Part shown: piece by piece, positions 2,337 to 57,462 of the stretch
Layout of the letters: each line of letters begins with the position of its first letter
Position numbering within the stretch: position 1 is the first letter of the stretch
Assembly (NCBI GenBank): GCA_022574595.1
Contig: JACZRS010000004.1
Location: 1-64,000, forward strand
Origin: Planctomycetota bacterium
Lineage (GTDB): Bacteria > Planctomycetota > Phycisphaerae > Phycisphaerales > SM1A02
Length of the DNA stretch: 64,000 nt
Direction of reading: 5' to 3'
The notes under the pieces: model-generated
Told to the model about the DNA's origin: nothing
Database searches by the model: none
Seen by the model: only the letters and a program-made list of their open reading frames with translations
Position numbers and translations under genes: made by a program

Positions 2337-3071
2337 TTGAAACTTAAGCAATGGGGTTTGACGACATGCTTAGCACTACTCATGACTATATCAAGAGGTG
2401 CGCACGCTTCCGATATGAATCCGTTTGAATATAGCGGTAGTGCAGGCACCTTATTGGGCTTAATGCAAAATGAAATGGGTAATGGAAACGGCGGATCCGG
2501 AGTGTTTGCTGGTGCGGGCTTCGGCACCAATATGGTCAATATTTTTCTTGTAGATCTTTCCGGCGCAAGTGGCCCTCTTAGCAATGCAGGTCTAACGCTC
2601 TTTGTTATGTGGGGTAACGGAGAAAGCCCAGGATCTGAGTACAGCGCTAGCGTTTCATTTACTGATATTTTCGACATAGGAAATGAAACGGGCCCACTCG
2701 AAGGCATAGCTGAAATATTTGCTCTTGGTGAAGGCGTAGCGATCGACCAGGGCACTGTTGCACTATCATATGCTGGCGGGGATGGTGGTATTGATGGTGA
2801 AATAGACCCAAGTGATATTACTCCACGTGGATTCGCTATTACTAACCTTCAAAGTATGAGTGAGGGCGAACTCATTGTAGCTTTCGAAGCTTTACAAGGT
2901 TCTATTCAAGATGTCGGCCTGTTTAACTTTGGCAATTCTAATCCAGATATGCTTTACGGTAATTTGCAACTTCAGCTACCTATCTTGATGGTGCCACTAC
3001 CACCACCACTGGGCTTAGCACTTGCTGGTCTTATTGGCGTGGTAATACTAAGACGACGGCTATGTCATTAG
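2337..3071 (+). CDS. Exosortase-sorted extracellular protein with VPLP-type PEP-CTERM tail
   Basis: A 244-residue secreted protein. It starts at a TTG preceded by a strong ribosome-binding site (GGAGGAGA at 2322-2329), and residues 1-24 form a signal peptide ending at AHAS. The middle is a low-cysteine, Gly/Asn-rich, beta-type domain with no enzymatic motif. The last 30 residues form the sorting signal: VPLPPPLG, a hydrophobic helix (LALAGLIGVVIL) and RRRLCH. Exosortase systems cut such tails in the inner membrane and send the body to the cell surface or polysaccharide matrix. The gene lies beside the end of the long polysaccharide operon that carries the exosortase but is transcribed toward it. 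About 250 bp of non-coding DNA upstream (2090-2336) leaves room for its own promoter; I see no clear sigma-54 or sigma-70 site there. Confidence 0.8.
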   Translation: MKLKQWGLTTCLALLMTISRGAHASDMNPFEYSGSAGTLLGLMQNEMGNGNGGSGVFAGAGFGTNMVNIFLVDLSGASGPLSNAGLTLFVMWGNGESPGSEYSASVSFTDIFDIGNETGPLEGIAEIFALGEGVAIDQGTVALSYAGGDGGIDGEIDPSDITPRGFAITNLQSMSEGELIVAFEALQGSIQDVGLFNFGNSNPDMLYGNLQLQLPILMVPLPPPLGLALAGLIGVVILRRRLCH

Positions 3072-12248: not shown

Positions 12249-12957
12249 GTTTTCGACCCTGACTTAGTATTGTCATGACAGATGAAAGGCCACTGAGCAA
12301 TTCTTCAGCAGCTTTAATTGATTTATCTAGTGGTATATCGCCGGACGTAACAATTTGTACTTGAGCAACACCTTGTACGGAAAGCGACAAGCGGCTGACA
12401 ATGCTACCTATCGCGCTAATTTCACATGTGAATTCACCATTAGGCAAAATGAAAAAATTGATAACGCGTGTATTTCTCTCAGATCCCCATCCATCAATCA
12501 TTTTGAAATGATAAACGCGAATTTGGATGTCCTTACCGTCTATAGAAACTTCATAATCCTGTCGATCATTAGTGTCCGGCTCATTCCACCCGTTAGCTGG
12601 AAAACAATTGGGTGGATAATGCCCTTGCATATCACGCGCATCACTGCAATGAACAATTATCAAGTCAGCAGGTTCACCACCGTCTAATCTTCCGAACTTG
12701 CGACTCAAGATAGCGTTAGGTCGAAGTATCTCAATTGCAGCTGTAGGAACCGGTATATCCTCACCAACCCAATCACCAATTCTGTACGGTGCATTACGAA
12801 ATATAATTGCAACCTCCTCATTCCTAGCTAATGCGTCTTTTTGATTTAGTAGCTCATCCACGTTGAGTGAAGGAAGAAACACCATCAGAAATAGCGCTAT
12901 TACAGGCGCGAATCGAGTAGGTCGCCGAAACAGTGCAATAATTGCAATTGGGCTCAT
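12232..12957 (-). CDS. EpsI-family exosortase-associated protein
   Basis: A 241-residue protein with one N-terminal hydrophobic segment (about 12-30) and a periplasmic domain. The family signature is GHYPPNCFPANGW at about residues 112-124, matching the H-x-P-x-x-C-x-x-x-x-G-W core of EpsI (DUF3485). EpsI occurs as a separate protein or fused to the C-terminus of exosortases and is needed for polysaccharide export in methylotrophs; its biochemical role is unknown. The start overlaps the exosortase stop by 4 bp (ATGA), so the two are translationally coupled. Confidence 0.85.
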   Translation of the reverse strand: MSPIAIIALFRRPTRFAPVIALFLMVFLPSLNVDELLNQKDALARNEEVAIIFRNAPYRIGDWVGEDIPVPTAAIEILRPNAILSRKFGRLDGGEPADLIIVHCSDARDMQGHYPPNCFPANGWNEPDTNDRQDYEVSIDGKDIQIRVYHFKMIDGWGSERNTRVINFFILPNGEFTCEISAIGSIVSRLSLSVQGVAQVQIVTSGDIPLDKSIKAAEELLSGLSSVMTILSQGRKHDYSN

Positions 12958-13835
12958 CGCATTGCCAATCTAAATGCCATGACAGGAAGTTCCAGCCAGC
13001 GAATGAGTCGAAGTATGCCTACAAGTATGACTAGTGCAATAGGAATCATGACCCAACCAGCAAGATCATGAAATACCTGTGCTTGATCAACAGAGCCATA
13101 ACCAAAAAACACACTAGTAGGGATAAGGCGCACAACGTTGCAAATAACCGCAACTAGCGGACTTATTCCCAACAAGACTATACGAGTACTCGTTCGTAAA
13201 GGCATACTAAATGCGAATGCATAAACCACAACACCAAAAGCAAGGATCATTCTTAAACCACTGCATGCTTCACCAACCGCTACAGGCTCATTATTGATTA
13301 CAAGAACCTGGCCCACGCGAAATGCAGGCACACCTATTAATTCCAAAACGATTTGTGTTACGTTCGTAGCAATATCTTGCAATGGTATTGCTATTAACTG
13401 CCTTATGCTTCCTGGAATTGGAATGAGAAAGAATAGCGCCAAGATTGCAGGCGAGAATTTGCGGACAATGCCAATGCCAGTCATACTCATAACGCATCCG
13501 AGCAACACCAGCATGGCGCCAGTATGAGATGCAATTTCTATATCCCGCTGCAGGCCAAAATAATTCAATAACCATCCAATGAAAACAATCGAAGGTCCAA
13601 CTAAGTTAAATTCAACCCGCATGGATGGTAGACGACTTCTTCTCAACCAAAATAGCCAAGCTGAGATTAAGGGCGCAAGCAAAATATATGATTGCTCCTC
13701 TCGCCCCATTCCTATACGCCACATCTCAGAAAGCGCTACCCTAGAAGTCCACACTCCTGCACTTAATAATAGCGCAAGCAATATCCAGTCATAAACCTTC
13801 CAACTTCTACGTAATGATGGTGTAAGTAATTTCAA
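12954..13835 (-). CDS. Exosortase (PEP-CTERM sorting protease/transpeptidase)
   Basis: A 293-residue polytopic membrane protein with about eight hydrophobic segments. All three residues of the exosortase active site are visible: Cys191 in EACSGLRM, Arg236 in CNVVRLIP and His256 in VFHDLAGW. Exosortases recognise the PEP-CTERM-type tail of exported proteins in the inner membrane, cut it and probably transfer the body to another molecule. The likely substrates here are the two VPLP-tailed proteins at the left of the window. The start is a TTG that overlaps the previous stop by 4 bp (TTGA). I cannot assign it to a numbered exosortase subtype from the sequence alone. Confidence 0.9.
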   Translation of the reverse strand: MKLLTPSLRRSWKVYDWILLALLLSAGVWTSRVALSEMWRIGMGREEQSYILLAPLISAWLFWLRRSRLPSMRVEFNLVGPSIVFIGWLLNYFGLQRDIEIASHTGAMLVLLGCVMSMTGIGIVRKFSPAILALFFLIPIPGSIRQLIAIPLQDIATNVTQIVLELIGVPAFRVGQVLVINNEPVAVGEACSGLRMILAFGVVVYAFAFSMPLRTSTRIVLLGISPLVAVICNVVRLIPTSVFFGYGSVDQAQVFHDLAGWVMIPIALVILVGILRLIRWLELPVMAFRLAMR

Positions 13836-37271: not shown

Positions 37272-37281
37272 TCAAATCGGC
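37240..37281 (-). terminator. Terminator-like hairpin straddling the stop codon of the NusG-like gene
   Basis: A perfect 7-bp inverted repeat GCCGATT (37275-37281 arm on the minus strand) and AATCGGC (37256-37262 arm) has a 12-nt loop containing the TGA stop of the NusG paralogue. It is followed in the transcript by CTTTCTTGTTGTTTTT. Hairpin plus U-rich tract fits an intrinsic terminator placed between a regulator and the operon that it probably controls. Confidence 0.6.
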
Positions 37282-37817
37282 TCGATTAAATCTGCATCAA
37301 TCTCCAATAGAGCCGCCTGCCCTAGAGTGCGAATTTGAAGCGCTAAACGACTCGGACCTAGACGGCTGGAAACTACACCCTCGATCCCCTGGAATGGTCC
37401 GCTAAGAACTCGGCAGTGTCTTCCAACGACCGCAAATGGGTAAAGATCAAGTGAGGCTTGGCCAGTGAGCGCGCGTTCAATATGGGCAATCTCATTTGCA
37501 AACTGCTCTTGATCAGGAACTTCAATAATGCTGCAAACTCGCTTGGTAGAGACTGCTTCGTACGCAGTTTCCAGTTCAGAATCCAGAAATACATAACTTG
37601 GAAAAAGTGGAACACTAGTCCGAAATTTACGCCCGCCTATAAAATGAACCCTTTGGACTAGAGGCAAGAAGAATCGCACACCCATAGAGTCAAGAAAGCG
37701 TCCTAGAGCTTTTTCTTGACGAGGCTTGGTCCACAACACTCTCCACTTCTTAATTGTTGAGCATGTGAGACTTACTGGGCCATAGTCGACATTGTTATGA
37801 TGAGTGAAGGTTGTCAT
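37272..37817 (-). CDS. NusG/RfaH/LoaP-family transcription antiterminator
   Basis: A 181-residue NusG paralogue. It has an NGN domain (residues about 22-115: WRVLWTKPRQEKALGRFLDS, then FFLPLVQRVHFIGGRKF and LFPSYVFL) and a C-terminal KOW domain (VVGRHCRVLSGPFQGIEGVV, residues about 128-148). Specialised NusG paralogues (RfaH, UpxY, LoaP) bind RNA polymerase and stop premature termination in one long operon, usually from a leader element. Being first in a 34-kb minus-strand run of EPS genes is exactly that context. NusG itself is normally encoded beside secE and ribosomal genes, which are absent here. Confidence 0.88.
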   Translation of the reverse strand: MTTFTHHNNVDYGPVSLTCSTIKKWRVLWTKPRQEKALGRFLDSMGVRFFLPLVQRVHFIGGRKFRTSVPLFPSYVFLDSELETAYEAVSTKRVCSIIEVPDQEQFANEIAHIERALTGQASLDLYPFAVVGRHCRVLSGPFQGIEGVVSSRLGPSRLALQIRTLGQAALLEIDADLIEPI

Positions 37818-38491: not shown

Positions 38492-39667
38492 CTAACGAGG
38501 GTAGTGAGGTATTCCATAGTTTGAGTGCCTGAACATGCCATGGACCCACTCGTTATCCAGCCGAGACATAAACGCGTTTGTTGATAGAGCCGCCGACAGC
38601 ATCTCCTTTGAAGATGAGTGAACCAAAAGTGAAGGGTGTTTATAGGGATGAAAGAACCCTCTCCCCGAACATACTTCAGCAACTATACTATCAAGCCGAC
38701 CAAATAATGCATTTGCGCCTCTATTTCTAGCACTTGAAAATAGATGCGCCATGACTTTGGCTACGTTCTCAGGTTTAGTAACTATCTGTACGACCTGCCC
38801 AAATCCATCTTTAAAAAGATAGTACACATACCATCCAATTAGTTTGCCATTGCTGTCACGAACCATTGATCCGATAACTTCCCCGTGATCAACTGGACCT
38901 CGTGAACAGTCCAATAGCCATCGCAAAAACTCTGGATCATAGTCAGGCCTAAGAGGGCTTGACTCTAAGAACTCAGGCAGGTGATCAATCATTTGATGAA
39001 TATTAAGTGGCTCTTCCTCTACAACTGAAGTCGCAAGGCGAAATGGATTTATTGGAATCTTCTGCAAGATAGAGTCCATACACAAAGCAACTGGTTGACC
39101 AGCCCACCAAAACGGTGCGGTCCATCTTGGCAAGCAAACCTGAGATAGCAATAGTTTTGCTGGCCTAATAGGTCGAAACCATCGACACCCAGACAGCCAA
39201 TGGTCATGTCCGCCTAGAAATTTCCAAAGAGGAAGTACACGGTCATTAGCACCAACTACAGTCAGATCCTGAGGGCCTTGAAGCACCCTACCTAACAGCA
39301 TCAGACCAGCTGCACATTGCTTCTCATCTAGTCGTGACCACAAAGGGCCTCCAGCAACCACCTTTATTTTTCTGCCATGCAAAACCATTCGACGAACATC
39401 GACACCTGCAAATGCAGTTATCTGACCATTGGGCTCTTCATAAACAAGCGACCTTAGTCCATCTTCAAGCCAGGGATTATCAAAGAAAACCTTTTCAAAA
39501 TAGTCAGCCAATTTCTCAAAAGCACCTGAATTGGACATTCCATAAGAAGCATCGTAGAGCTCAGAAATTTGAGACAGATCTGCCCGTTCAAGTGGACGTA
39601 TAGCACCTACCTTATTAGTTGGAGTCTTCTTTGTTTGCACAGATAAATGACCTGAGTTCATTAACAA
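38492..39667 (-). CDS. GNAT-like acyltransferase family protein
   Basis: A 391-residue protein with a GNAT-type N-terminal half: IRPLERADLSQISELYDASY (start of the fold), ITAFAGVDVRRMVLHGRKIKV and a weak acyl-CoA loop in GLMLLGRVLQGPQ. The C-terminal half carries a second similar unit (GKLIGWYVYYLFKDGFGQVVQI). It resembles double-GNAT proteins found in polysaccharide and lipid loci. It is divergent from the flavoprotein gene at 40024 and separated from the EPS operon by 674 bp, so it may belong to either the EPS set or the biosynthetic cluster. Confidence 0.6.
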   Translation of the reverse strand: MLMNSGHLSVQTKKTPTNKVGAIRPLERADLSQISELYDASYGMSNSGAFEKLADYFEKVFFDNPWLEDGLRSLVYEEPNGQITAFAGVDVRRMVLHGRKIKVVAGGPLWSRLDEKQCAAGLMLLGRVLQGPQDLTVVGANDRVLPLWKFLGGHDHWLSGCRWFRPIRPAKLLLSQVCLPRWTAPFWWAGQPVALCMDSILQKIPINPFRLATSVVEEEPLNIHQMIDHLPEFLESSPLRPDYDPEFLRWLLDCSRGPVDHGEVIGSMVRDSNGKLIGWYVYYLFKDGFGQVVQIVTKPENVAKVMAHLFSSARNRGANALFGRLDSIVAEVCSGRGFFHPYKHPSLLVHSSSKEMLSAALSTNAFMSRLDNEWVHGMFRHSNYGIPHYPR

Positions 39668-40023: not shown

Positions 40024-41748
40024 ATGATACCTATGAAGAATTACGAAACAGATGTTCTGGTGGTTGGAGGCGGCGGGGCTGCCACCGCCGCAACAATAAG
40101 CGCTCACGAAGGTGGGGCCAGAACAATGCTTGCGGTTAAAGGTCAATTTGGTGTTCCAGGAAAAAGAGGAGCCGGAGCTACTTCAAATCCACTAGGTGAT
40201 TTCTGGACCATCAGAACTGTAGGACCAAAAGGCAGCTTCTTTAATCCACCAGAATTGGTCTATGCGGACATGATTCAAGCGGGACTCGGAATGGCGGATC
40301 CGGCAATATGCAGGGTGTTTGTTGATGAGGTGTCCCATGCTCTAGAGCGGCTCAGTGAAATGGGAATGAAATTTAAAAGCAAAATGTTAGCAACAATGCC
40401 CGCAGATGCCAAAGCTGGAGGCACGCATGGAATTGTCGCTATTCAAAAAGCTATTATTTCTGCAACTAATACCCAGGTTGTCGAACATGCAAATCTAACC
40501 GATTTAATTGTCCAAAACAACAGATGCCTTGGAGCATTTGGAGTTGATGATGAAGGCGAACCATTCCTCATACAAGCTGGTGCAGTAATACTTGCAACAG
40601 GAGGAGTAGGGCAACTCTTTAAGCATAGTTTTAATCCATCGGGAAATACCGGTGATGGTTATGCCATGGCTCTGCGCGCAGGGGCAACTTTATTTAACAT
40701 GGAATTCATGCAGCAAGGTTTGGCTACGACTTTCCCCAATCAAGCAATGGTAATGCTCTATGAAATGGATGAACCTTATCATCTTACAAATACTGACGGG
40801 AAAGCGTTCCTGGCGGATTATTTACCCGCAGGCGTAACCTGCGAAGATGTTTCAAAGTTAAAAGCAAACCATTGGCCGGTCAGTTGCCGAGATGATGCAA
40901 TCCACTTAGATAGAGCAATGAAGGGAGAAGTATTAGCTGGACGAGGCACGGAAACCGATGGCATTTACATTGATCTTTCCAAAGGTGAACGAGGATTTGA
41001 ACCGGAACTATTCGCGAAATTTATGCTTGCAAAGGGTATAGATATAAGAAACGAGCTTGTGCAAGTACAGAATCACCACCACACAAGTAACGGCGGAATT
41101 AGAATCGACACTAATGGAAATACCAGCATTGAAGGCCTATTTGCTGTTGGTGAAGTTGGTGGTTGGCAAGGCGCTGATCGCCTTGGTGGAACTATGCTTG
41201 GAGGCTCACAAGTCTTTGGTTGGCGGGCAGGAACGCAAGCTGCAAGTATTGCATCAACCCGCCCCAATATCTCGTTAAAAGAAGAAGATGTACAGGACAA
41301 TCAACAATTACTCGCTCAAATTAAGTCATCAAACGGAAATAAAACTCCGGATGATCTAAGACCCGCCTTGCAACAAGTAATGTGGGAGAACCTGCTCGTA
41401 GAGAAGTCTGAACAAAGTCTAAATCAAGCAAGAGAATTTATTCTTAGCCAGCGCAGTAATCTGTTTAAGTCGATGTATATCGCCAAACCAACAGATACTG
41501 CAATTGCCTTTGAACATATTAATTTGTTAGATGTAGCGGAAGCGATCGTTGAAGCTGCTTCTATGCGTAAAGAAAGTCGTGGAAGCCACTACCGCAGCGA
41601 TTTCCCTCAAATTGATAACGATAATTGGCTGACAAACATTTTCATATATCGCAAAGACAACAAACTTCAGCTTAAAAAAGAGTGGGTTGCGGAGTCTGGT
41701 GGTTGGGAAGATCAACCTGGTGATATTCGAATTAAGCCGTGGGGTTAA
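40024..41748 (+). CDS. FAD-dependent oxidoreductase (succinate dehydrogenase/fumarate reductase flavoprotein family)
   Basis: A 574-residue flavoprotein. The N-terminal dinucleotide-binding motif is VLVVGGGGAATAATISA, followed by the family GKRGAGATSNPLGDF segment. A second FAD stretch occurs as AVILATGGVGQLFKHS, and the C-terminal substrate/FAD region is IEGLFAVGEVGGWQGADRLGGTML. This is the fumarate reductase/L-aspartate oxidase/3-ketosteroid dehydrogenase superfamily. No iron-sulfur or cytochrome partner genes are adjacent. It lies convergently with, and 6 bp from, the UbiD-type gene of the biosynthetic operon, which suggests a role there. The exact substrate is unknown. A start at either of two ATGs (40024 or 40033) is possible; neither has a good ribosome-binding site. 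Confidence 0.82.
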   Translation: MIPMKNYETDVLVVGGGGAATAATISAHEGGARTMLAVKGQFGVPGKRGAGATSNPLGDFWTIRTVGPKGSFFNPPELVYADMIQAGLGMADPAICRVFVDEVSHALERLSEMGMKFKSKMLATMPADAKAGGTHGIVAIQKAIISATNTQVVEHANLTDLIVQNNRCLGAFGVDDEGEPFLIQAGAVILATGGVGQLFKHSFNPSGNTGDGYAMALRAGATLFNMEFMQQGLATTFPNQAMVMLYEMDEPYHLTNTDGKAFLADYLPAGVTCEDVSKLKANHWPVSCRDDAIHLDRAMKGEVLAGRGTETDGIYIDLSKGERGFEPELFAKFMLAKGIDIRNELVQVQNHHHTSNGGIRIDTNGNTSIEGLFAVGEVGGWQGADRLGGTMLGGSQVFGWRAGTQAASIASTRPNISLKEEDVQDNQQLLAQIKSSNGNKTPDDLRPALQQVMWENLLVEKSEQSLNQAREFILSQRSNLFKSMYIAKPTDTAIAFEHINLLDVAEAIVEAASMRKESRGSHYRSDFPQIDNDNWLTNIFIYRKDNKLQLKKEWVAESGGWEDQPGDIRIKPWG

Positions 41749-41754
41749 CAAATA

Positions 41755-43131
41755 TCAACTATCTTTATTATCCAGAAACTCCGACATATCAATCTTATCT
41801 AGCAATTGCTTGGCAATGGTATTGCGCTCAATCTTTCGCTTGCCTACAAGTGGAGCAGTCGCATCTATCCCCAATTTCGAAGTAATGCCAGATTCGCCGC
41901 GGCATGATGGATCTAACGGCGTACCCTGCAAATCCTTAAAAACAAAGACATCCTGATCAGGCTGAACGTTTAGCGCAACTGCGCAGTTCACTTGCCTTGC
42001 ATCACTAACATTTACATCAGCATCAACAATAGTTACGTGCTTTGTATATATATCGCTCTTGCATAACGCTTCTATAATCTTCCGAGGTGCTGCATCATCC
42101 GATTTTTCAATAGACACAACAATGGTTAATGGTGCGACGATTTTCACATTCTTTATTGACGGTGATGCTGACTGAGCAACTTTTTTAATTGAGTACTCCA
42201 TGCCCAATATGGGAAGCACTAAATGCTCAGAATGCCCACTTGCAATATCTTGAAAAATTGGATCCTTGCGGTTAGTAATAGTGTGTACTTCTAAAACAGG
42301 AGTTTGCATCGTACCCGTTGCGTATCCTGTAAACTCACCAAACGGCCCTTCTTCAATGCGCTCATTAGGTCTTACAATTCCCTCAAGTACAAACTCTGCA
42401 TCTGCAGGTACAAACAATCCTTTATTCTTAACACACTCAACTACTCTTAGCGCTTCACCTTGCAAGCCTCCGATGATGTCGTATTCCTCTACATCAGTTG
42501 ATCCTGTATAAACACCGCCTAGCGACAATATAGGATGAACTCCAATGAAAGCCGCGATGGGCATAGCTTGATTCTTCGCCACATATTTCTGATATATCCC
42601 GTCTAAATGCTTACCCGCAGCCATATATATACCGGTTCGATTACGGCCAGCAATCATCAGACGATGAAAACTCAAATTACTTTTTCCGGTTTCCGGATCA
42701 ACCGCAACAACAATTGCAGCTGTGATATATGGCTTATCACAATCTTTCTCGTGATAAATTAGCTTAGGTAATACTCCAAGATCAACATCCTCATCCACAA
42801 CCACTTCATCTTGAACTGCTGCGCTATCAATAACTTTGGGTTTGATAGGATTCTTACACCCATTCTCATAACGTTGCGACAATTCAGCAACAGTAACTCC
42901 AAGCGCAAGGGCTAGACGAGATAGCGAACCGCAAACATTTGTTACCAAAGGAAAGCTGCAACCTTCTACATCTTCAAAATAGAATATCGGCAAACGATAC
43001 GATTGTTCAAACTTCGCAAGAATTGCAGTAGTTTCATAATTGGGATTCACACACCGCTTAACAGTTACAATGTCCTGCGGCCGATCCTGCCTGACTTGAT
43101 CGAGAAAACTGCGTAAATCAACCATTAGCAA
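41755..43131 (-). CDS. UbiD-family (prenylated-flavin) decarboxylase
   Basis: A 458-residue enzyme matching the UbiD/Fdc1 family along its length. The N-terminal region is DLRSFLDQVRQD; the cofactor/metal-binding part includes RTGIYMAAGKHLDGIYQKY. The catalytic Glu-containing segment is EEGPFGEFTGYATG, which corresponds to the conserved E(Y/F)xxxxGPFGE block with the Arg-Glu-Glu triad. Such enzymes use prenylated FMN for reversible decarboxylation of aromatic or alpha,beta-unsaturated acids. The flavin prenyltransferase UbiX is not in the window. It ends the seven-gene minus-strand operon and begins 20 bp after the acyl ligase gene, so its substrate may be an acid processed by those enzymes. 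Confidence 0.87.
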   Translation of the reverse strand: MLMVDLRSFLDQVRQDRPQDIVTVKRCVNPNYETTAILAKFEQSYRLPIFYFEDVEGCSFPLVTNVCGSLSRLALALGVTVAELSQRYENGCKNPIKPKVIDSAAVQDEVVVDEDVDLGVLPKLIYHEKDCDKPYITAAIVVAVDPETGKSNLSFHRLMIAGRNRTGIYMAAGKHLDGIYQKYVAKNQAMPIAAFIGVHPILSLGGVYTGSTDVEEYDIIGGLQGEALRVVECVKNKGLFVPADAEFVLEGIVRPNERIEEGPFGEFTGYATGTMQTPVLEVHTITNRKDPIFQDIASGHSEHLVLPILGMEYSIKKVAQSASPSIKNVKIVAPLTIVVSIEKSDDAAPRKIIEALCKSDIYTKHVTIVDADVNVSDARQVNCAVALNVQPDQDVFVFKDLQGTPLDPSCRGESGITSKLGIDATAPLVGKRKIERNTIAKQLLDKIDMSEFLDNKDS

Positions 43132-43151
43132 GCTCTTGATTGTTAATAATT

Positions 43152-44705
43152 TTATTTCTCACAGTCTGCATCAAAAAGTCTACGTAGCGCTTGGTGATCA
43201 ATTTTACCCGTCGTGGTTCTAGGTAATGTATCAATAAATTTGATTTTGTGCGGCGTACGCACAAATGACAAGTGTTTTAGGCAGCTAGCGCGAATGTCCA
43301 GTTCTGATTGCTTCGCTCCAGGTTCTTGTACAATACACGCTACAATTTCTTCTCCAAGCATTTCGTGTGCAATCCCCATCACAACTGATTCAGCTACGCC
43401 TTGGATATCATTAATTACTCTTTCAATTTCCTTGGGGAATATCCGTTCTCCGGCACTTTTTATCATTTGTGATAATCGACCGACAAGATATAGTTGACCT
43501 TGAGCATCTACAAAACCTAAATCACCAGTATGAAGCCGGCCTTTTGAATCTATAATTCCATCTGACACTTCATCCCCAGATACATAACCCCGCATAACAT
43601 TTGGGCCAGTAACAACAATTTCACCTTTTTGTCCGCTAGGTACTTGTGTTCCATTTTTATCTAGTATTTCGATGCGAACTCCGGGCAATGGCTTCCCACA
43701 GAAACCATCCTTATTTGTATCACTGCTATGTTCACTAAAAGTTATACGCGGGGAAGCTTCGGTCTGGCCATAAGCCATGTATAGCTTTGCATTTGGTTGA
43801 GCAGCAACAAGTTCAGCTTGCTCTTTCAATGAAAAAGCACCGCCGGTAACAAGTAAGTATTTCAAATCAGGTAAGTAAGTACTACTTAACTTGCTGCGTC
43901 TAAGTAAAGTTGTAAAGAAATAAGGTACGCCAGAGAAACCACTTACTTTGTATTGTGCTAATTCTTTAAGTACTTCAGATGGAAATTGGAAACCATTGGA
44001 AAAATAGACAGTTCCACCAATATTCATATGAGTAATCAACTGCATTCGTCCATGTATAAAATAAAGAGGTACAGAAACAAGAATGCTGTCGCTGCTGGTT
44101 AGATTCATATATTCGTTTGCAGCAACAACATTGGAAATCAGATTTTTATGAGAAAGCATCACACCTTTAGGTTGACCTGTTGAACCTGATGTATAAATAA
44201 TTACCGCAACAGCATTTTCATCTATATCTAAAGGTTTGTTTTCGATTGACTCTGTTTTACATATGTCCGCTAAAGTGTGAGTGCCAAGAGATGTAGTATT
44301 AGCATCAGACGCTGGCTTGTCAGAAATAAATACGAGATCGGGGAATCCTGCTAGTGAACCTTGGCTTGTCAAATTTATAAACTGTTGATTGGAAACTACT
44401 ACTGCAAATGGTTTACATTCCTGTAGTGCTGTACTAATCATTTCGCGCCCTGCAGTAGCGGGTATATCTACAGATTCTGCACCCGCTTTGAGAATACCCC
44501 AAAAGTAGATCACAGAATCCAGAGTACTTTCAGAAATTATCGCAACACGACACCCCGGGCCGATTTCAAGTCGATTTAATCTCGCTGCAACCTGCGCGCT
44601 CTTCTTGTCAAGATCGCGGAAAGAGATCTTCTCATCTTTGAAGACAACTGCTGCCTTGTCCGGCAATTGCTTAGCATTTTTAATTAGAAGATCAGGAAGA
44701 AGCAT
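43152..44705 (-). CDS. AMP-dependent acyl-CoA/acyl-ACP ligase (ANL superfamily)
   Basis: A 517-residue adenylating enzyme. Core motifs are visible in order: A3 P-loop VIIYTSGSTGQPKGVMLSHK (residues about 166-185), A5 LYMAYGQTEASPRIT, A7 RLHTGDLGFVDAQGQLYLVG, A8 hinge IKSAGERIFPKEIE and A10 lysine PRTTTGKIDHQALR. It activates a carboxylic acid as the acyl-AMP and transfers it to CoA or a phosphopantetheine. An acyl carrier protein is encoded 17 bp upstream, so loading of that carrier is plausible. The substrate is unknown. Confidence 0.88.
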   Translation of the reverse strand: MLLPDLLIKNAKQLPDKAAVVFKDEKISFRDLDKKSAQVAARLNRLEIGPGCRVAIISESTLDSVIYFWGILKAGAESVDIPATAGREMISTALQECKPFAVVVSNQQFINLTSQGSLAGFPDLVFISDKPASDANTTSLGTHTLADICKTESIENKPLDIDENAVAVIIYTSGSTGQPKGVMLSHKNLISNVVAANEYMNLTSSDSILVSVPLYFIHGRMQLITHMNIGGTVYFSNGFQFPSEVLKELAQYKVSGFSGVPYFFTTLLRRSKLSSTYLPDLKYLLVTGGAFSLKEQAELVAAQPNAKLYMAYGQTEASPRITFSEHSSDTNKDGFCGKPLPGVRIEILDKNGTQVPSGQKGEIVVTGPNVMRGYVSGDEVSDGIIDSKGRLHTGDLGFVDAQGQLYLVGRLSQMIKSAGERIFPKEIERVINDIQGVAESVVMGIAHEMLGEEIVACIVQEPGAKQSELDIRASCLKHLSFVRTPHKIKFIDTLPRTTTGKIDHQALRRLFDADCEK

Positions 44706-44722
44706 TTATAGGCAATATAATA

Positions 44723-44986
44723 TCAACCTACTCGTCTTCCTGCGGTTCGCCTTTGCACATACTCTGTTAAACGCTGCACTGTGCCGAACGTTTCTGGAGA
44801 AATGTCCTCGAGCTCTACCGGAAATTGATATGTTTCTTCGATCCAGAGCACTAACTGCATCATTGCGGTGGAGTCAAGAATCCCATTTCCCACCAAATCA
44901 GTAGTGGCCGATAACTCAACCCCTGTGTCTGGCGCAAACTGACTTCGAATATAATCTATTAACTCAAACTCTGGCCCCATGGTCAT
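44723..44986 (-). CDS. Acyl carrier protein
   Basis: An 87-residue protein from the ATG at 44984-44986; a much longer upstream frame overlaps the enolase gene and is not used. TGAGGAAT lies 7-8 nt upstream as a ribosome-binding site. The carrier signature is GNGILDSTAMMQLVLWIEE with Ser39 as the phosphopantetheine attachment site, and the length and helix pattern fit a discrete ACP. It probably holds the acyl intermediates of this cluster after loading by the ligase at 43152-44705. A phosphopantetheinyl transferase is not in the window. Confidence 0.9.
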   Translation of the reverse strand: MTMGPEFELIDYIRSQFAPDTGVELSATTDLVGNGILDSTAMMQLVLWIEETYQFPVELEDISPETFGTVQRLTEYVQRRTAGRRVG

Positions 44987-44990
44987 TTCT

Positions 44991-46130
44991 CTATTCCTCA
45001 CCCTCAAAATTGAAAACACGATCTTTAATGGTGTACCGCGCCAAACGCTCACTGTCAACGATAATCCCCAAACCAACCTCCATTCCATCGCCAGACTTGG
45101 ATTCCCCCGCTTTTTCTATGTCAATAATATCGTCCTCTAACAGGAATCTACTCTGCCCCTTTCCTTCCAAACAAGCGAAAACACCCATTCTTTTGCCAAA
45201 TATCTCTGATGCTCGTGAAAGGATGCCAGTCTCCCCAACCAGAGTCCCAAGGTGACAGGCTATATTGTTCTCCAGAGCAAACTTAACAAGACGCTGTGAA
45301 CCACCGAAACCACCACACTTACCAAGTCGAACATTTATTATGTCTATAGCTTGAGCCTCGACGCAGCGTTTCGCATCTTCTAAGGTACAAACCGATTCAT
45401 CACCCATGACCCTGATCCCCAATTCCTCACGCACCTGACGCATACCCTTTAGATCAGCAGCATGAACTGGTTGCTCCACTGATTGAATTTCAAATTGCAG
45501 CATAGGTTTAATCGCTAAAACAGCTTCGTCAGCCTTCCATTTGCCGTTTGCGTCTATTCTTAGTTCTATTGTGTCACCAAGACAATCAGAAATAATCTGT
45601 ATTCGCTCTAAATCATCATCCAACCCTACCTTGAGTTTTAAGTGTTTGCATTGGCCAAGTTTCAACATAGCGCATTGTCGAGGCAATTTATCCGTTGACA
45701 CTTCATATCCAATAACAATGCCGCGTTCAAGCTCAACACCCTCTTTTATGCTGATTGCTTCACCAATTGGAAAACCAAAGCAATGTCCACCAAGATCAAG
45801 TAGAGCAAGCTCAAAACCACACAAAGTTGCAAGTTCACGATCTGTATTTTCTAGTTGCGTTATGAGAGATGAAAGCAGTTGCTCCTTATCATCAAACTTT
45901 CGACCAACAAACGCCGCGGCCAATGCTGGCGCATGATCGTCAAATACAGATTCAACAGTTTCTCCCGTTAGATACTGCCTTGGGACAATTTCTCCAAACC
46001 CAACTCTTCCATCCTCATCCGCTGCACAAACAATAAGAGATTCAGCAACTTTTCGTTCATGCAACGCGTGCTGAAAGGGCGTTTTCAGCGGAATCCTAAT
46101 GTGGTAAATGCGAATTGCTTTAACAAGCAT
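44991..46130 (-). CDS. Enolase-superfamily enzyme, muconate-lactonising/o-succinylbenzoate synthase subgroup
   Basis: A 379-residue enzyme with the full catalytic set of the MLE subgroup: K165-x-K167 (LKLK), metal ligands D193 (RIDAN), E219 (VEQP) and D244 (GDES), and K271 (LGKCGG). Members abstract a proton next to a carboxylate: muconate cycloisomerase, o-succinylbenzoate synthase, N-succinylamino acid racemase and dipeptide epimerases. The position between GH3 and ACP genes gives no precedent known to me; a carboxylate-bearing small molecule or amino-acid-like substrate is likely. It overlaps the GH3-like gene by 11 bp and precedes the ACP by 4 bp. Confidence 0.88.
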   Translation of the reverse strand: MLVKAIRIYHIRIPLKTPFQHALHERKVAESLIVCAADEDGRVGFGEIVPRQYLTGETVESVFDDHAPALAAAFVGRKFDDKEQLLSSLITQLENTDRELATLCGFELALLDLGGHCFGFPIGEAISIKEGVELERGIVIGYEVSTDKLPRQCAMLKLGQCKHLKLKVGLDDDLERIQIISDCLGDTIELRIDANGKWKADEAVLAIKPMLQFEIQSVEQPVHAADLKGMRQVREELGIRVMGDESVCTLEDAKRCVEAQAIDIINVRLGKCGGFGGSQRLVKFALENNIACHLGTLVGETGILSRASEIFGKRMGVFACLEGKGQSRFLLEDDIIDIEKAGESKSGDGMEVGLGIIVDSERLARYTIKDRVFNFEGEE

Positions 46131-47778
46131 CGTATCGCTCCACTACCGTAAACCGATCAGCAAATTTAACATCGCGTGTTAGATGAATCGGTTTGATCTG
46201 ATCGTCGCTGGCACCATCATTAATCTTGTCTTGACGCCATTTTGAGTAGCTTCCCACTTCTACCACCCATATCTCTGGTGCCCCAAGTCGCTGAGATTTC
46301 CGCTTGGATTCGTATTCTGTATTGCAAACTGAAAGCTGCTTGTCAACCTCATTTGCAAGTGATTGAAAATTGTTGTTTTCTCCAATTTGCGTAGGCTCAA
46401 CAAGTATCACATAGTGAGGTAGAGGCTCATGTCCAGGAAAAAGTACGAACCAAGATGCTTTAAGGGATACTTTTGTTGAAGCAGCATCAAACGCTATAGT
46501 TACTTGTTGCTCAGTAAGTTTTTCTCCAGTTAACGAGCATGTTGCACCTACGCGATAAAGAAATTCGATTGTCGGCGTGCCATCTCTCTTGCCAGTTACG
46601 CGCACAACATCACCAATGTTATATCGATACAGTCCCGATGATGTACTCAATAGCACCACATACAAATCGCCTACAACAATTTCATGCGCAAGCAATACAT
46701 CGGGGTTACTCTTATCAAATTGATCAAGTGCAATGAATTCATAAAAATGTGTGTTGGTTGCGAGTACCCCCCCACTGACATTATCTTCTATGGGAATAGC
46801 TAATATTCCTTCTGAAGCCATAGTAATGTAGTCCCGACCTGGTATTGAACTAAGATGCGGCTCCAGCAAACGATGATAAGGGCTTAGCATTTCACTTCGC
46901 CAACACACCGCAAGCTCTAGCTCAGGCCAAATTTCCGTTGCGATTAACTGCGGATCTTGACTGCGCATTATATTGCGTAATGCATCAGCTCGGCCAGGAT
47001 TTCCTGTAAATGTAGTTTCGATTTCCTCACGCAGATTTGCTGGTACATTGACCGATTCCAACAAGCCACCGTTTTGAATATCGTTAATTAACTCATCTTT
47101 GCAAGCGTTAATCTTATTTAGCAGCAAGACAATCGTGCTGGGATTAAGCGTCATAATGATTGATATATCGACTTGCTCTAGCAGAAGCCTGGCAATTGTG
47201 TAATGACGACTATCAGTATCTGATATCTCTGAGATAGATGCTGGAAGTGATGGTTTTTTGTCCACTCGCAAGCTTGCTTCCCACATTTTCCAAAAAGCAC
47301 TTTCAGAACTACAAGGCGTGCCGCCTGCGGTATTAAAGGTTGAACCCGAATCAGCAAAATTGGTTAAAATTCTACCTTTCTTAGTCTTTGGATGTTGCTG
47401 AAAAGTCAAAGCCCAGAACACCGAGAATGCTCGAGCTTTATCGCGTATGAGTGAACCGGTAACCGGAATATACTTTGGCTTAGCTGTAGAACCACTTGTG
47501 ATAAAGTAACGGCGTACTGGCTCAGAAACGAGTACTCCAGTTTCTCCCTCCATCATACGCACAATCGCAGGACGCAGATCTTCGTATTCCACTCGCGGCA
47601 CTGCTCGTTGATAATCTTGGGCTGTCTTAATGGAAGCAAAACCATGAGCGCGGCCATACTCACTATCAATATTGGGACTAATGACTTTTCGCAATAAACA
47701 GTCCAACTGCGCTGCTTTGGGATCTTTCAGCCCTTCATAAAAACTACTAATTACCTTAGGAACAGACACTCTACACAT
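46120..47778 (-). CDS. GH3-family acyl-adenylating enzyme (auxin-responsive GH3-like)
   Basis: A 552-residue protein of the GH3 family. It has the N-terminal YGRAHGFASIKTAQDYQRAVP motif (split across residues 39-59), the ATP-binding loop YFITSGSTAKPKYIPVT (about residues 88-104), the AMP/acceptor region TSSGLYRYNIGDVVRV and a C-terminal cap domain. Plant GH3 enzymes couple acids such as jasmonate or auxin to amino acids; many bacterial relatives exist with unknown acids. In this operon it could form an amide or ester with the acid handled by the neighbouring enzymes. The start is the codon at 47776-47778, overlapping the alpha/beta hydrolase by 8 bp. Confidence 0.85.
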   Translation of the reverse strand: MCRVSVPKVISSFYEGLKDPKAAQLDCLLRKVISPNIDSEYGRAHGFASIKTAQDYQRAVPRVEYEDLRPAIVRMMEGETGVLVSEPVRRYFITSGSTAKPKYIPVTGSLIRDKARAFSVFWALTFQQHPKTKKGRILTNFADSGSTFNTAGGTPCSSESAFWKMWEASLRVDKKPSLPASISEISDTDSRHYTIARLLLEQVDISIIMTLNPSTIVLLLNKINACKDELINDIQNGGLLESVNVPANLREEIETTFTGNPGRADALRNIMRSQDPQLIATEIWPELELAVCWRSEMLSPYHRLLEPHLSSIPGRDYITMASEGILAIPIEDNVSGGVLATNTHFYEFIALDQFDKSNPDVLLAHEIVVGDLYVVLLSTSSGLYRYNIGDVVRVTGKRDGTPTIEFLYRVGATCSLTGEKLTEQQVTIAFDAASTKVSLKASWFVLFPGHEPLPHYVILVEPTQIGENNNFQSLANEVDKQLSVCNTEYESKRKSQRLGAPEIWVVEVGSYSKWRQDKINDGASDDQIKPIHLTRDVKFADRFTVVERYDAC

Positions 47779-48631
47779 GCCCCGCTTCTAAACGCTGCAT
47801 CCAGTTGCAAAGAAGTGACGCTAATAAATCGGGGACTTCAAATTGCATCCCGTGCTGTGCTTCACAAGATTCCATACTTATAGATTTGCTATCTAATTGA
47901 TTAAACTTCTCAATCGTTTTTTCATTATCAATTGCTTTATCATTATTTGCAGTTATTAGCAAGATTGGGCAATTGATTTCTGCAAGACGAAGCAAGGCAT
48001 TAGCGCTCATTTTTAACATTATTCCAAAGAACCGCGGCGTGATAGTTCGCAAGCGCAATTTATCTTTTAGTATGTAATCTTCCAACCATTTGCTATCTGT
48101 GTACATCTCCTCATTTATCGGATTATCCAAACACGGTTCATCCAAGGAAAGTTCTGTTTCTCTAATTCTATCTTGTTGTTGCGTGATACGCTTGTGAACG
48201 GTATCTGATGGATAAATACCGGGCGCAAGTAAAGCAAGCCCATTTAGATCATCACCTAATTCTAATGCAACATTTATAGCTAAAGCTGCTCCCCAACACC
48301 AACCAAGTAAATATAGTGGACGTGCATCATCTTTGTACACATTTATAATTTGCTTTACATCTAAAACCAATTGCTGACGCGATAGTGCATCGCCACAACT
48401 TTGTTTGTTTATTCCTGACTCTCGCCTATCAGCGCCAATTACATCCACATTACTTTTATTTAAAACTTCAGCAAGTGGCGCAAACCATTGAGAATGGCTC
48501 ATCACACCATTAAGCAAAACTACCGTGGCAGTTGGCTTGGTTGCACGCCATAATCTATAGCTAAGCTGATAGCCATCTGTCATTCTAAGCGTGAGCTGCT
48601 GCTCATTGGATTCATTTGCGCATTGTGCCAT
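47771..48631 (-). CDS. Alpha/beta hydrolase with cysteine nucleophile
   Basis: A 286-residue alpha/beta hydrolase-fold protein. The nucleophile elbow is G-W-C-W-G at residues 110-114, so Cys112 replaces the usual Ser. The acid is probably Asp in LLITANNDKA (about 228) and the base His in CEAQHGMQFEV (about 264). Cys-Asp-His triads occur in dienelactone hydrolases and in PHA synthases, which also have GxCxG and act on acyl thioesters. With an ACP and an acyl ligase in the operon, an acyltransferase or thioesterase-like role is attractive but unproven. The oxyanion loop is VVLLNGVMSHSQWF. Confidence 0.82.
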   Translation of the reverse strand: MAQCANESNEQQLTLRMTDGYQLSYRLWRATKPTATVVLLNGVMSHSQWFAPLAEVLNKSNVDVIGADRRESGINKQSCGDALSRQQLVLDVKQIINVYKDDARPLYLLGWCWGAALAINVALELGDDLNGLALLAPGIYPSDTVHKRITQQQDRIRETELSLDEPCLDNPINEEMYTDSKWLEDYILKDKLRLRTITPRFFGIMLKMSANALLRLAEINCPILLITANNDKAIDNEKTIEKFNQLDSKSISMESCEAQHGMQFEVPDLLASLLCNWMQRLEAGHV

Positions 48632-48661
48632 TGCGCAATACGTCCTTCATTGCTAAGCGGT

Positions 48662-49441
48662 CTATATTACAGCACCGCCGGAAACATTAATTGCCTGTCC
48701 AGTAATTCCCTTTGCTTGCGGTGAGACTAAGAACAGCGCAAGGCCAGCTATTTCCTCAGGAGTGATTAGTCTTTGCTGCGGACTATCAGATGCTAACTGT
48801 TGAAGATATTCTTCAGCTGATTTACCAAACATCTTGCCTCGTGCGCCCATTGTATATTTAGTCAATTCAGTATCTAAGTGCCAAGGGCAGATCGCATTGG
48901 TAGTGATTCCTACCTTGGCCACCTCAAGTGCAATTGACTTTGTAAATCCTATTACCGCAGCCTTTGATGAAGCGTAAGCGCTGTTGTACGCAGCTCCCAC
49001 CAACCCTGCGACAGAAGAAATATTCACGATTCGGCCGGCTTTTGCCAGCACCATGTGGCGCAGCACTGCTTTAGTACAGTAATACACGCCCATAAGATTG
49101 ACATCTATTACTTCACGCCACTTCTCATCATCCGACATCACCAAATTAGCGACATAGCTTGCACCTGCATTATTTATCAGTATGTCAATGCGTCCAGCTT
49201 GCTCCATTGCTATTTCGATCATCTTTCCAACTGCATTAGAATCTGTTACATCAGTTTCAACCGAAACAGCTTTGCCGCCTGCGTCATTGATTTCACTTGC
49301 GACAGTTGTGATCTGATCAGTGTTGCGTGCAGCCAAGACAACAGTAGATCCACATTGTGCAAAAGTGAGCGCTATTTCCTTGCCGATACCTCGCCCAGCG
49401 CCTGTGATAATCGCAACTTGTCCGCTTAAGTCGATATTCAT
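48662..49441 (-). CDS. Short-chain dehydrogenase/reductase (FabG-like)
   Basis: A protein of 259 residues if started at the ATG at 49439-49441 (MNIDLSGQVAIITG), which gives a normal SDR length; an upstream start adds ten unconserved residues. The motifs are GAGRGIGKEI (NAD(P)-binding), NNAGASYV, the catalytic Ser in NISSVAGLVG and Tyr/Lys in YNSAYASSKAA. It resembles 3-oxoacyl-ACP reductases by sequence. It probably reduces or oxidises an intermediate on the ACP or CoA. It is the first gene of the operon, 30 bp before the hydrolase. Confidence 0.88.
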   Translation of the reverse strand: MNIDLSGQVAIITGAGRGIGKEIALTFAQCGSTVVLAARNTDQITTVASEINDAGGKAVSVETDVTDSNAVGKMIEIAMEQAGRIDILINNAGASYVANLVMSDDEKWREVIDVNLMGVYYCTKAVLRHMVLAKAGRIVNISSVAGLVGAAYNSAYASSKAAVIGFTKSIALEVAKVGITTNAICPWHLDTELTKYTMGARGKMFGKSAEEYLQQLASDSPQQRLITPEEIAGLALFLVSPQAKGITGQAINVSGGAVI

Positions 49442-49528: not shown

Positions 49529-50632
49529 CTAACCCCATTGCTCAAAGAGAATTAGAATGTCGCTTGTACCAACTGCTCCATCTTCATCCAGGTCAGCTGG
49601 ACAGCATTCATTTCGATCAGGACAATCTCCCCAAGCGCTTAGCATGATTAATAAATCATCCATATTGACCGTGCCATCGCCATTTAAATCCGCAGAAGGT
49701 TCCGCAAAGGAGCTTACATAATAAATCGCGTTAGCCAGTATCTGAAAATTGTTTCCCTCTAAATCATCCAGAGCATTGGGTTGATATTCACCCGGTTGAT
49801 ATCCGAAGACAATCCCCTTCCACTCCGGGCGTTTATGTGTAAAGCCTAGCAGATGTGTGCTTCCATTTTGTGAATAGTTACTACCAAAGAGAACTTCAAA
49901 TTCACTTACATCATCATTAATTTCAAAGTTTAAATATCGCTCATCCGGGGTGTTATTAAATGATCTATATGTACCCGCTGGTACACCCCTATCAAGATCG
50001 CTGTAATTCACTTGAGCAGTATATTCAATAGAATTGCTGGTAATAAAGTGCAAGGGTGAAACGTTTATTACATTCTGGCCATCCACTATATTCCAAGGGA
50101 CAGATCCATATGCGCTTGCGCCAATCACGCTTTGAATTGATTGCTTACCGCTTGTTATATATGAACCATGATGGAAAGATATCATGCCGCCACCCGCTAC
50201 AAGATAGTTTTCCACAGCTTCGGTAAACGCTTCTTGCCGGGCAATGTTATTTGCTGCTGAACCGTTGTTGGGAATTCTGTGGGCGAAATAGATCAGTACA
50301 TCATAAGCATCAGGATCACATAAGGATACGGATAACGCTTGCGTCGCTAATTCAATGCTATTGGTTGGGATTTCCAAAATGCTGTTTGGGGTGTGACTAA
50401 TTTTCAGGCCTGTACCGTGTTGTCCTAGTGTAGCTGACAAATCGCCTGGTTCAGTCAAATCCTCGGGTGGCAATCCGTGAGGATTCACATAGTCACTAAC
50501 AATTAGAATGCGCAGTGGATCATGTGGCGGAAGTTCAGCAGCAAATGCTGCTTGGCTAACCATCACAACAACCCCAACACTCACAATAAATCGCTGCACG
50601 ACAGCAGAATATGACAACACACCACGACTCAT
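49529..50632 (-). CDS. Secreted ThuA-like protein with dockerin-like C-terminus (paralogue 1)
   Basis: A protein of 367 residues from the ATG at 50630-50632, which precedes a proper signal peptide (MSRGVLSYSAVVQRFIVSVG...AFAA); the longer upstream frame is not conserved in the paralogue. Residues 35-290 form a ThuA-like (class I glutamine amidotransferase-like) domain: PLRILIVSDYVNPHGLPPEDL, AYDVLIYFAHRIPNNGS and GGGMISFHHGSY. ThuA proteins are linked to trehalose/sugar use, but the enzymatic role is uncertain. The C-terminal 60 residues contain two EF-hand-like DLNGDGTVNMDDLL-type repeats ending in ILILFEQWG. A near-copy lies at 56350-57462. Confidence 0.78.
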   Translation of the reverse strand: MSRGVLSYSAVVQRFIVSVGVVVMVSQAAFAAELPPHDPLRILIVSDYVNPHGLPPEDLTEPGDLSATLGQHGTGLKISHTPNSILEIPTNSIELATQALSVSLCDPDAYDVLIYFAHRIPNNGSAANNIARQEAFTEAVENYLVAGGGMISFHHGSYITSGKQSIQSVIGASAYGSVPWNIVDGQNVINVSPLHFITSNSIEYTAQVNYSDLDRGVPAGTYRSFNNTPDERYLNFEINDDVSEFEVLFGSNYSQNGSTHLLGFTHKRPEWKGIVFGYQPGEYQPNALDDLEGNNFQILANAIYYVSSFAEPSADLNGDGTVNMDDLLIMLSAWGDCPDRNECCPADLDEDGAVGTSDILILFEQWG

Positions 50633-50850
50633 TAGAAAATCCTTCAGCCTCCTGGCCATGTATCTCACACAAGGCCTAAAACGCGAGTATAACCAACCAA
50701 TAATCTGAACCGTAGATCTTTTTTCAAAATTGCCAATTTCCTTAAATAATGGCCTCATTTTGGGCTGAGAGTTAAGATGGGCGAGACTTGAGTCTTGAGG
50801 GGCGAGACTTGAGGGATGAGTCCCGCCACGGCGGATTCCAAGCAACTTGA

Positions 50851-50876
50851 GCATAAAGCCGCGACCGTTGGTCGCG
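50851..50876 (+). repeat. Dispersed palindromic repeat B, copy 1
   Basis: GCATAAAGC followed by CGCGACC-GTT-GGTCGCG, a perfect 7-bp stem with 3-nt loop. An inverted copy is at 53287-53311 with a single loop difference (AAA), including the GCATAAAGC flank except for its first base; a half copy (CGCGGCTTTATGCC) is at 55020-55033. Confidence 0.75.
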
Positions 50877-51140
50877 TTCTTCAATCGGGACTGGTGGTGT
50901 TTTAGCCATGGAAAATGAATTTCACAAATTCCATATTTTTTCATTTTCCGTGGGTTTGGACACGCACGTATGCGCGCGCAAATGTGCGTTTTTGAAGAAT
51001 TTTCACCACGGAGTCACGGAGACACAGAGAAGAAATATATACAAAGTTTAGCGGCTGGCGTCTCGCCAGCGCGTTCCAGTCAGGAGTCAGGGTCTCAAGA
51101 CTCAGGACTCAAGACTCATCCCTCATAGCTCCGCTACCTT

Positions 51141-56349: not shown

Positions 56350-57462
56350 TCAACCACAATCCCCCCAACTGAATAATAGGTCAAGAAGATCTTGTGTACT
56401 AACTGTCCCATCTCCATTTATGTCAGCTAGACAGCATTCACCTTTATCAGAACACTGACCCCAAGAATTTAGCAGGTATTTCAGATCGGCTTCGTCAACT
56501 ATTCCATCGCCATTAAAGTCAGCACAGGGTGTGGCAAAGTTGCTTACATAATAAATCGCGTTAGCCAGTATCTGAAAATTATTGCCATCTAAATCATCCA
56601 GGGCGTTGGGTTGATACTCACCAGGCTGATATCCCACGACAATCCCATTCCATTCCGGGCGTTTATGCGTAAAGCCTAGAAGATGAGTCGTACCAATTTG
56701 GTCATAGTTGCTAGCAAAGAGAACTTCAAATTCATCAATGTCATTATTTATATCAAAGAAAAGGTATCGCTCATCAGGGGTGTTATTAAAGAATTCATAC
56801 TTACTCATTGGCACACCACTATCGGGATCGCTATATATTACTTGATCGGTATATTCAACAGAATTATTGGTAACAAAGTGTTCAGGTGAAACGTTTATAA
56901 CATTTTGGCCATCGATTGTGTCCCAAACTACACTTGCTACTGCAGTTGCCCCAATGATACTTTGAATTGAATCTTTGCCGCTTGTTTTATATGAACCATG
57001 ATGGAAAGATATCATGCCTCCGCCCGCTATAAGATAGTTTTCCACAGCGTCTACAAACGCTTCTTGCCGAGCTGTGTTGTCTTTTGCTGAACCGTTGTTG
57101 GGAATTCTGTGGCAGAAGTAGATCAGTACATCATATGCGTTAGGAGAACATAGTGACACACCTAACGCCTTCGTAGCCATTTCAATGCTATTTGTTGGGA
57201 TTTCCAAAATGCTATCAGGCTCCTTGCTGATATTCAGACCTGTACCTGGCATTTGTAATGCAGCAGATATGTCGCCAGGTTGAGTCAAATCCTCAGGCGG
57301 CAATCCGTGAGGATTCACTTGGTCACTAACAATTAGAATGCGCAGTGGATCGTGCTTTGGCAAATCAGCAGCAAACGCTGCTTGGCTAAAGATCACAACA
57401 GCTCCCACAGCCATAACAAATAGCTGCACTTTGGCAGTAATTGACGTTACAAAATTATGCAT
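56350..57462 (-). CDS. Secreted ThuA-like protein with dockerin-like C-terminus (paralogue 2)
   Basis: A 370-residue protein, colinear and highly similar to 49529-50632. The signal peptide ends at AFAA (about residue 31); the ThuA-like domain begins PLRILIVSDQVNPHG and includes GGGMISFHHGSYKTSG; the dockerin pair is DFNGDGIVDEADLKYLL and DINGDGTVSTQDLLDLL, ending LFSWGDCG. Short parts are almost identical in DNA (for example around 56540-56610 against 49712-49782), so the copies are fairly recent. Secreted; sugar-linked function suspected only from the ThuA name. Confidence 0.8.
   Translation of the reverse strand: MHNFVTSITAKVQLFVMAVGAVVIFSQAAFAADLPKHDPLRILIVSDQVNPHGLPPEDLTQPGDISAALQMPGTGLNISKEPDSILEIPTNSIEMATKALGVSLCSPNAYDVLIYFCHRIPNNGSAKDNTARQEAFVDAVENYLIAGGGMISFHHGSYKTSGKDSIQSIIGATAVASVVWDTIDGQNVINVSPEHFVTNNSVEYTDQVIYSDPDSGVPMSKYEFFNNTPDERYLFFDINNDIDEFEVLFASNYDQIGTTHLLGFTHKRPEWNGIVVGYQPGEYQPNALDDLDGNNFQILANAIYYVSNFATPCADFNGDGIVDEADLKYLLNSWGQCSDKGECCLADINGDGTVSTQDLLDLLFSWGDCG

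Follow-up and report, generated by a model that had tools for sequence, protein, structure and literature searches.

The 64,000-nucleotide stretch analysed here (the window; positions 1 to 64,000 of contig JACZRS010000004.1 from a Planctomycetota bacterium) contains a compact cassette of eight genes encoding an FAD enzyme, a UbiD-family decarboxylase dependent on prenylated flavin mononucleotide (prFMN), an ANL acyl ligase, a discrete acyl carrier protein (ACP), an enolase-superfamily enzyme of the MLE type, a GH3 enzyme, an alpha/beta hydrolase (ABH) and an SDR oxidoreductase (Table 1). A first-pass annotation made from the sequence alone had described these families, their positions and their tight packing, and Pfam and NCBIfam searches together with the coordinates bear this out, with all eight open reading frames intact. 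Seven genes lie on the minus strand, and the FAD gene, which may start at either of two in-frame ATG codons (40024 or 40033), converges on UbiD across a gap of 6 bp. Spacing is otherwise 26 bp for UbiD-ANL, 17 bp for ANL-ACP, 4 bp for ACP-MLE and 30 bp for ABH-SDR, with overlaps of 11 bp between MLE and GH3 and of 8 bp between GH3 and ABH.

Table 1. Cassette genes, followed by neighbouring features, with positions in the window.
Feature	Position	Strand	Evidence
FAD enzyme, FAD_binding_2 + Succ_DH_flav_C	40033-41748	+	Pfam 2e-33 and 1.1e-19
UbiD-family prFMN-dependent decarboxylase	41755-43125	-	TIGR00148 296.8 bits (cut-off 244.85)
ANL acyl ligase, acyl-CoA/acyl-ACP synthetase type	43152-44705	-	Pfam AMP-binding 1.3e-78
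Discrete ACP, phosphopantetheine site Ser39	44723-44986	-	Pfam PP-binding 9.9e-6
MLE/enolase-superfamily enzyme, N-acylamino acid racemase / dipeptide epimerase-like	44991-46130	-	
GH3 acyl acid amido synthetase-like enzyme	46120-47778	-	Pfam GH3 1.1e-55, GH3_M, GH3_C
ABH, Cys nucleophile	47771-48631	-	Pfam Hydrolase_4 1.8e-27
SDR oxidoreductase	48662-49441	-	Pfam adh_short 1.1e-58
GNAT-like protein adjoining cassette	38492-39667	-	Pfam: none; 26-27% homologue beside the cassette of a second planctomycete (G062)
UpxY/RfaH-like antiterminator, head of polysaccharide cluster	37272-37817	-	NF033644 2.5e-21, 76 bits (cut-off 100); Pfam NusG 4.5e-10
Exosortase of adjoining polysaccharide cluster (context, not cassette enzyme)	12954-13835	-	TIGR02602 123.8 bits (cut-off 105.55)

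The first-pass annotation had let the novelty of this cluster depend on whether its families co-occur elsewhere, and the eight do recur as a set, in another planctomycete (G062), in two gammaproteobacteria (G341 and G342) and, as a partial copy, in a third (G907). Genome scans with GH3 placed all eight families inside 11 kb in the metagenome-assembled genome (MAG) G341 (locus L015), and in the Woeseia MAG G342 (locus L016) recovered seven together with the hydrolase slightly further out. G062 carries the one further FAD orthologue in a 294-genome Planctomycetota sample, and there the eight families follow the gene order of the window. Searching the order to which G342 belongs yielded G907, whose copy comprises ANL, UbiD, SDR, FAD enzyme and hydrolase and is partial because the contig begins inside the ANL gene. 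It also yielded an FAD orthologue on a 3.1 kb contig (locus L050, G765:C303, 810-2534), which carries one in-frame TAG and may therefore be decaying or misassembled. Matches were rare, at 2/294 for Planctomycetota, 1/369 for a class-level search and 4/246 for the order of G342 with query genomes counted; the search within the class of G062 took in three genomes, and the cassette copies come from a small number of genomes, of which some at least are MAGs. Every complete copy, in either phylum, preserves the order GH3-MLE-ACP-ANL-UbiD. The eight-gene arrangement exceeds chance, since three other genomes, from two phyla, hold the same families as a cluster and a fourth holds part of it. All four relatives add an S-adenosylmethionine-dependent methyltransferase, of which a search of the window genome (G000) found no homologue, and the G907 cassette is flanked by a UbiX-family flavoprotein, a GNAT and a FemAB-like protein.

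The cassette genes have not diverged evenly. The FAD protein is 62-65% identical to its orthologues in the four other cassettes, and between phyla this range compares with ~30-45% for neighbouring genes; the two planctomycete FAD proteins resemble each other no more than they do those of the other phylum, and trees likewise show far lower cross-phylum divergence for the FAD enzyme than for the other cassette genes. Strong constraint, the sole explanation offered, may account for this. ANL is 48% identical to the G062 copy and 35-40% to the gammaproteobacterial copies, and SDR 59% and 35-37% respectively. The best reading is that the cassette is rare, mobile and horizontally spread.

UbiD retains the Arg of SFHR and both Glu of EGPFGE in 5/5 copies, its best match in the Protein Data Bank (PDB) is 6h6x/6h6v, and UbiX is present in all four genomes checked, including the window genome, where it lies outside the cassette. 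The P-loop and catalytic Lys of ANL and the YxxxK of SDR are also kept. Ser39 of ACP, numbered from the ATG at 44986 and already picked out in the first-pass annotation, falls within a conserved DS-x-AMM motif whose DS is kept in four cassettes. The Cys nucleophile then assigned to the hydrolase is likewise real, as the elbow reads GWCWG; Cys is present in all five cassette copies, whereas Ser occupies this position in the three hydrolases that were examined in other operons with a GH3-MLE pair. A role for ABH as acyltransferase or thioesterase is possible. GH3 carries the GH3, GH3_M and GH3_C domains, alignment shows its adenylation motifs TSGST, SE and YRYNIGD to be kept, and on these sequence features it is a member of the acyl acid amido synthetase family. 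In MLE the two-sided Lys arrangement and three acidic metal ligands (K165, K167, D193, E219, D244 and K271) are invariant across five aligned homologues, and the N-terminal loop carries a motif of its own, F-x-H-[AS]...R. The closest PDB entry, both by sequence and by the predicted model of MLE, is 2p88, an N-succinyl-Arg/Lys racemase, to which the model aligns with Z 40.2 and a root-mean-square deviation of 2.6 over 353 positions; several substrate-specificity subgroups are almost tied with it.

The FAD enzyme retains the Sdh-like H350 and R383. Replacement of the HPTG and RGEGG regions by QQGLATT and EMDEPYHL rules out a succinate dehydrogenase or aspartate oxidase of the standard type, and the best equivalog score is 279 bits against a cut-off of 718 (succinate dehydrogenase, fumarate reductase and L-aspartate oxidase). 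It is likely a dehydrogenase or oxidase of a carboxylate substrate. An AlphaFold2 model built from three sequences had a mean pLDDT of 36.6 and was discarded.

The pairing of GH3 with a racemase-like MLE extends beyond the cassette. GH3 matches occur in 72/392 Planctomycetota genomes, and the six loci that rank directly behind the two cassettes (L053-L058, from six further planctomycete genomes) all have MLE adjoining GH3 and a hydrolase on the opposite side. The cassette GH3s form one clade in the GH3 tree (SH-aLRT 99), and the presence of an MLE neighbour maps onto this tree with 2 changes, compared with 11.3 in shuffles, 0/500 of which were as low. Several of these loci belong to a conserved planctomycete ParA-hydrolase-MLE-GH3-hydrolase-patatin operon (L013 in G003, L083 in G239 and L084 in G152), which looks like an undescribed, lipid-type system. 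This operon shares with the cassette the adjacent GH3 and racemase-like MLE as well as alpha/beta hydrolases, but differs in its patatin, its ParA and its Ser-type hydrolases (G003), and UbiD, FAD enzyme, ANL, ACP and SDR were not seen in it. In a gammaproteobacterial MAG (L021, 1-10294) the genes for GH3, hydrolase and MLE are next to those for a carbamoyltransferase, a ThDP enzyme and a MatE transporter, and this locus may be a further natural-product cluster that employs the pair.

A second feature of the locus is its exosortase and exopolysaccharide (EPS) setting. Directly past the GNAT-like gene that borders the cassette sits the antiterminator, and the window exosortase is accompanied by chain-length and sugar-transferase genes. 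In the three genomes with long contigs, exosortase and cassette share a contig, at a distance of 26 kb in the window genome, 28 kb in G341 and ~54 kb in G342; in G062 and G907 they are on different contigs. Assuming that a genome of 4-5 Mb encodes one or two exosortases, we roughly estimate that three such coincidences would arise by chance about 1 in 10,000 times. GC content is 43% in both the cassette and the EPS cluster compared with 48.7 +/- 2.7% in 26 sampled tiles of the genome, which suggests a common foreign origin. The GNAT-like protein may possibly transfer acyl groups to polysaccharide, although its membership of the cassette is uncertain. Near the exosortase locus, a protein without Pfam match (2337-3071, plus strand) has the C-terminal sequence VPLPPPLGLALAGLIGVVILRRRLCH, similar to a PEP-CTERM/VPLP sorting tail, and the genome encodes a second exosortase on another contig (G000:C10:177551-178267). 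On the far side of the cassette, two similar secreted proteins (49529-50944 and 56350-57462, both minus strand) have dockerin-like tails, and several of their neighbours share the same tail type.

The first-pass description of the locus as an unassigned biosynthetic cluster is supported, although it overlooked the exosortase/EPS setting, the GH3-MLE pairing and the methyltransferase and UbiX of the relatives. We propose, with a probability of roughly one half, that it is a dedicated, horizontally spread biosynthetic cassette tied to an exosortase/EPS locus and making a modified N-acyl amino acid. The choice of an N-acyl amino acid is drawn from homology, mainly because MLE is nearest to an N-succinyl-amino acid racemase and GH3 enzymes make N-acyl amino acids; the nearest relatives of MLE, N-acylamino acid racemases and dipeptide epimerases, use N-acyl amino acids, which would support it, and the bacterial GH3 enzyme OlsH, a maker of N-acyl ornithine encoded beside the acyltransferase OlsI, also speaks in its favour. 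Following its family activity, GH3 would adenylate a free carboxylic acid and couple it to an amino acid, and MLE, whose residues are suited to taking the alpha proton of the resulting N-acyl amino acid, would bring about epimerisation or elimination. The FAD enzyme may then desaturate this intermediate, leaving an alpha,beta-unsaturated acid that UbiD would decarboxylate as a prFMN enzyme. ANL may put a second acid on ACP, SDR may reduce this second acid or the core, and the Cys-hydrolase, handling the thioester, would transfer or release the ACP-bound acid. In the relatives a methyltransferase would also methylate the product. We hold this exact order of steps with far less confidence than the proposal as a whole. 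The acylated, decarboxylated and amino-acid-like product suggested in the first-pass annotation is compatible with it, though unproven.

Several observations weigh against this proposal. UbiD, ANL and SDR are 33-45% identical between phyla and were matched as members of large families rather than as proven orthologues, structure matches of near-equal Z for MLE include cycloisomerases and OSB synthases, and the reaction of the FAD enzyme is uncertain because the HPTG/RGEGG residues of its characterised relatives are missing. The cassette contig of G062 lacks an exosortase, although polysaccharide-type genes still flank the cassette. The substrates of GH3, ANL and SDR are not deducible from sequence, and we infer substrates, product, step order and transfer to polysaccharide alike.

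One of the closest described systems leads to ornithine lipids. In the planctomycete Singulisphaera acidiphila, OlsH uses ATP and free acid to make N-acyl ornithine, and OlsI, encoded next to it, is an acyltransferase of alpha/beta-hydrolase fold (PMC12493201). The cassette shares with this ornithine lipid (OL) pathway a planctomycete host and a GH3-type ligase adjoining an alpha/beta hydrolase, here in the same operon and overlapping by 8 bp, with ACP close by. An amino-lipid pathway of this kind, in which GH3 forms the N-acyl amino acid, the hydrolase attaches another acyl chain, the remaining genes modify a membrane-lipid head group and the exosortase neighbourhood is incidental, would also agree with the seemingly lipid-directed patatin operon. 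The OlsHI pathway itself was rejected, as GH3 scores 108.1 bits (OlsH cut-off 620) and ACP 38.8 (OlsHI-ACP cut-off 130). The cassette moreover adds MLE, UbiD, FAD enzyme, ANL and SDR, OL synthesis has no known role for UbiD or an FAD enzyme, and the Cys-type hydrolase sets the cassette apart from the related operons, so that we regard an amino-lipid product as doubtful, if worth keeping in view. Somewhat less probable still is an aromatic-acid or quinone-like pathway, with MLE, ANL and hydrolase acting as MenC, MenE and MenH, UbiD decarboxylating an aromatic acid, the FAD enzyme oxidising it and GH3 conjugating it with an amino acid. MLE-superfamily enzyme, ANL ligase and alpha/beta hydrolase do stand together in menaquinone synthesis, MLE scores 107.6 bits with the MenC model and ANL 230 bits with that of MenE, aromatic acids are typical UbiD-family substrates, and the methyltransferase of the relatives would fit. 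Yet the MenC, MenE and MenH scores are all under cut-off, MenD gives no match in G000 and G062, and in G341 and G342 nothing above cut-off, and menaquinone synthesis has no place for the dedicated ACP and GH3, nor does it include UbiD, and menaquinone synthesis as such was therefore rejected.

A catabolic role, in which MLE, hydrolase, UbiD, SDR and FAD enzyme would degrade an aromatic or amide compound, appears very improbable. Each of these families has catabolic members, and a Cys-type hydrolase following an MLE-type enzyme is reminiscent of dienelactone chemistry, but GH3 and ACP indicate synthesis, the cassette lacks a ring-cleaving dioxygenase, transporter or regulator, and its surroundings are devoted to polysaccharide synthesis. 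Chance neighbourhood without joint function can be set aside almost entirely: SDR, ANL and alpha/beta hydrolase families are very common, but the recurrence of eight families in two phyla with their internal order kept in practice already refutes it. Exosortase-linked N-acyl amino acid synthase (NAS) clusters such as that for stieleriacines, also known from planctomycetes, carry out N-acyl amino acid chemistry next to genes for exosortase and polysaccharide, with the amino acid part desaturated and methylated and with nitroreductase and ThiF-type enzymes reported (PMC12479983, PMC7293339). The cassette shares their proximity to exosortase/EPS genes (three genomes, 26-54 kb apart on one contig), but GH3 would form the amide, and the cassette has FAD enzyme and UbiD where those clusters have nitroreductase and ThiF-type enzymes. 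An NAS belonging to the exosort_acyl family (TIGR03694 type) has no match in G000, G062, G341 or G342, and identity with an exosortase-linked NAS cluster was rejected on this absence. The first-pass view that the locus matches no characterised pathway holds for the Ols and Men systems, and the open full-text literature, a scope outside which most subscription papers fall, yielded no description of the eight-gene set.

Our results define the eight enzymes as a coherent unit, with no counterpart found among the systems described in that literature, and add to it a GH3 and racemase-like MLE pairing that recurs in planctomycetes. Tentatively, and at well under even odds, the cassette may represent a new natural-product class of N-acyl amino acid derivatives made independently of non-ribosomal peptide and polyketide synthases, in which ligation by GH3, epimerisation by the enolase-superfamily enzyme, desaturation by the flavin enzyme and decarboxylation by the prFMN enzyme would lead to an enamide destined for, or attached to, an exosortase-linked polysaccharide in two phyla. 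The locus offers a concrete entry to the question of what is produced by the acyl-activating genes found around exosortase/EPS loci. If the proposed route is true, it would place a prFMN decarboxylation step within N-acyl amino acid chemistry.

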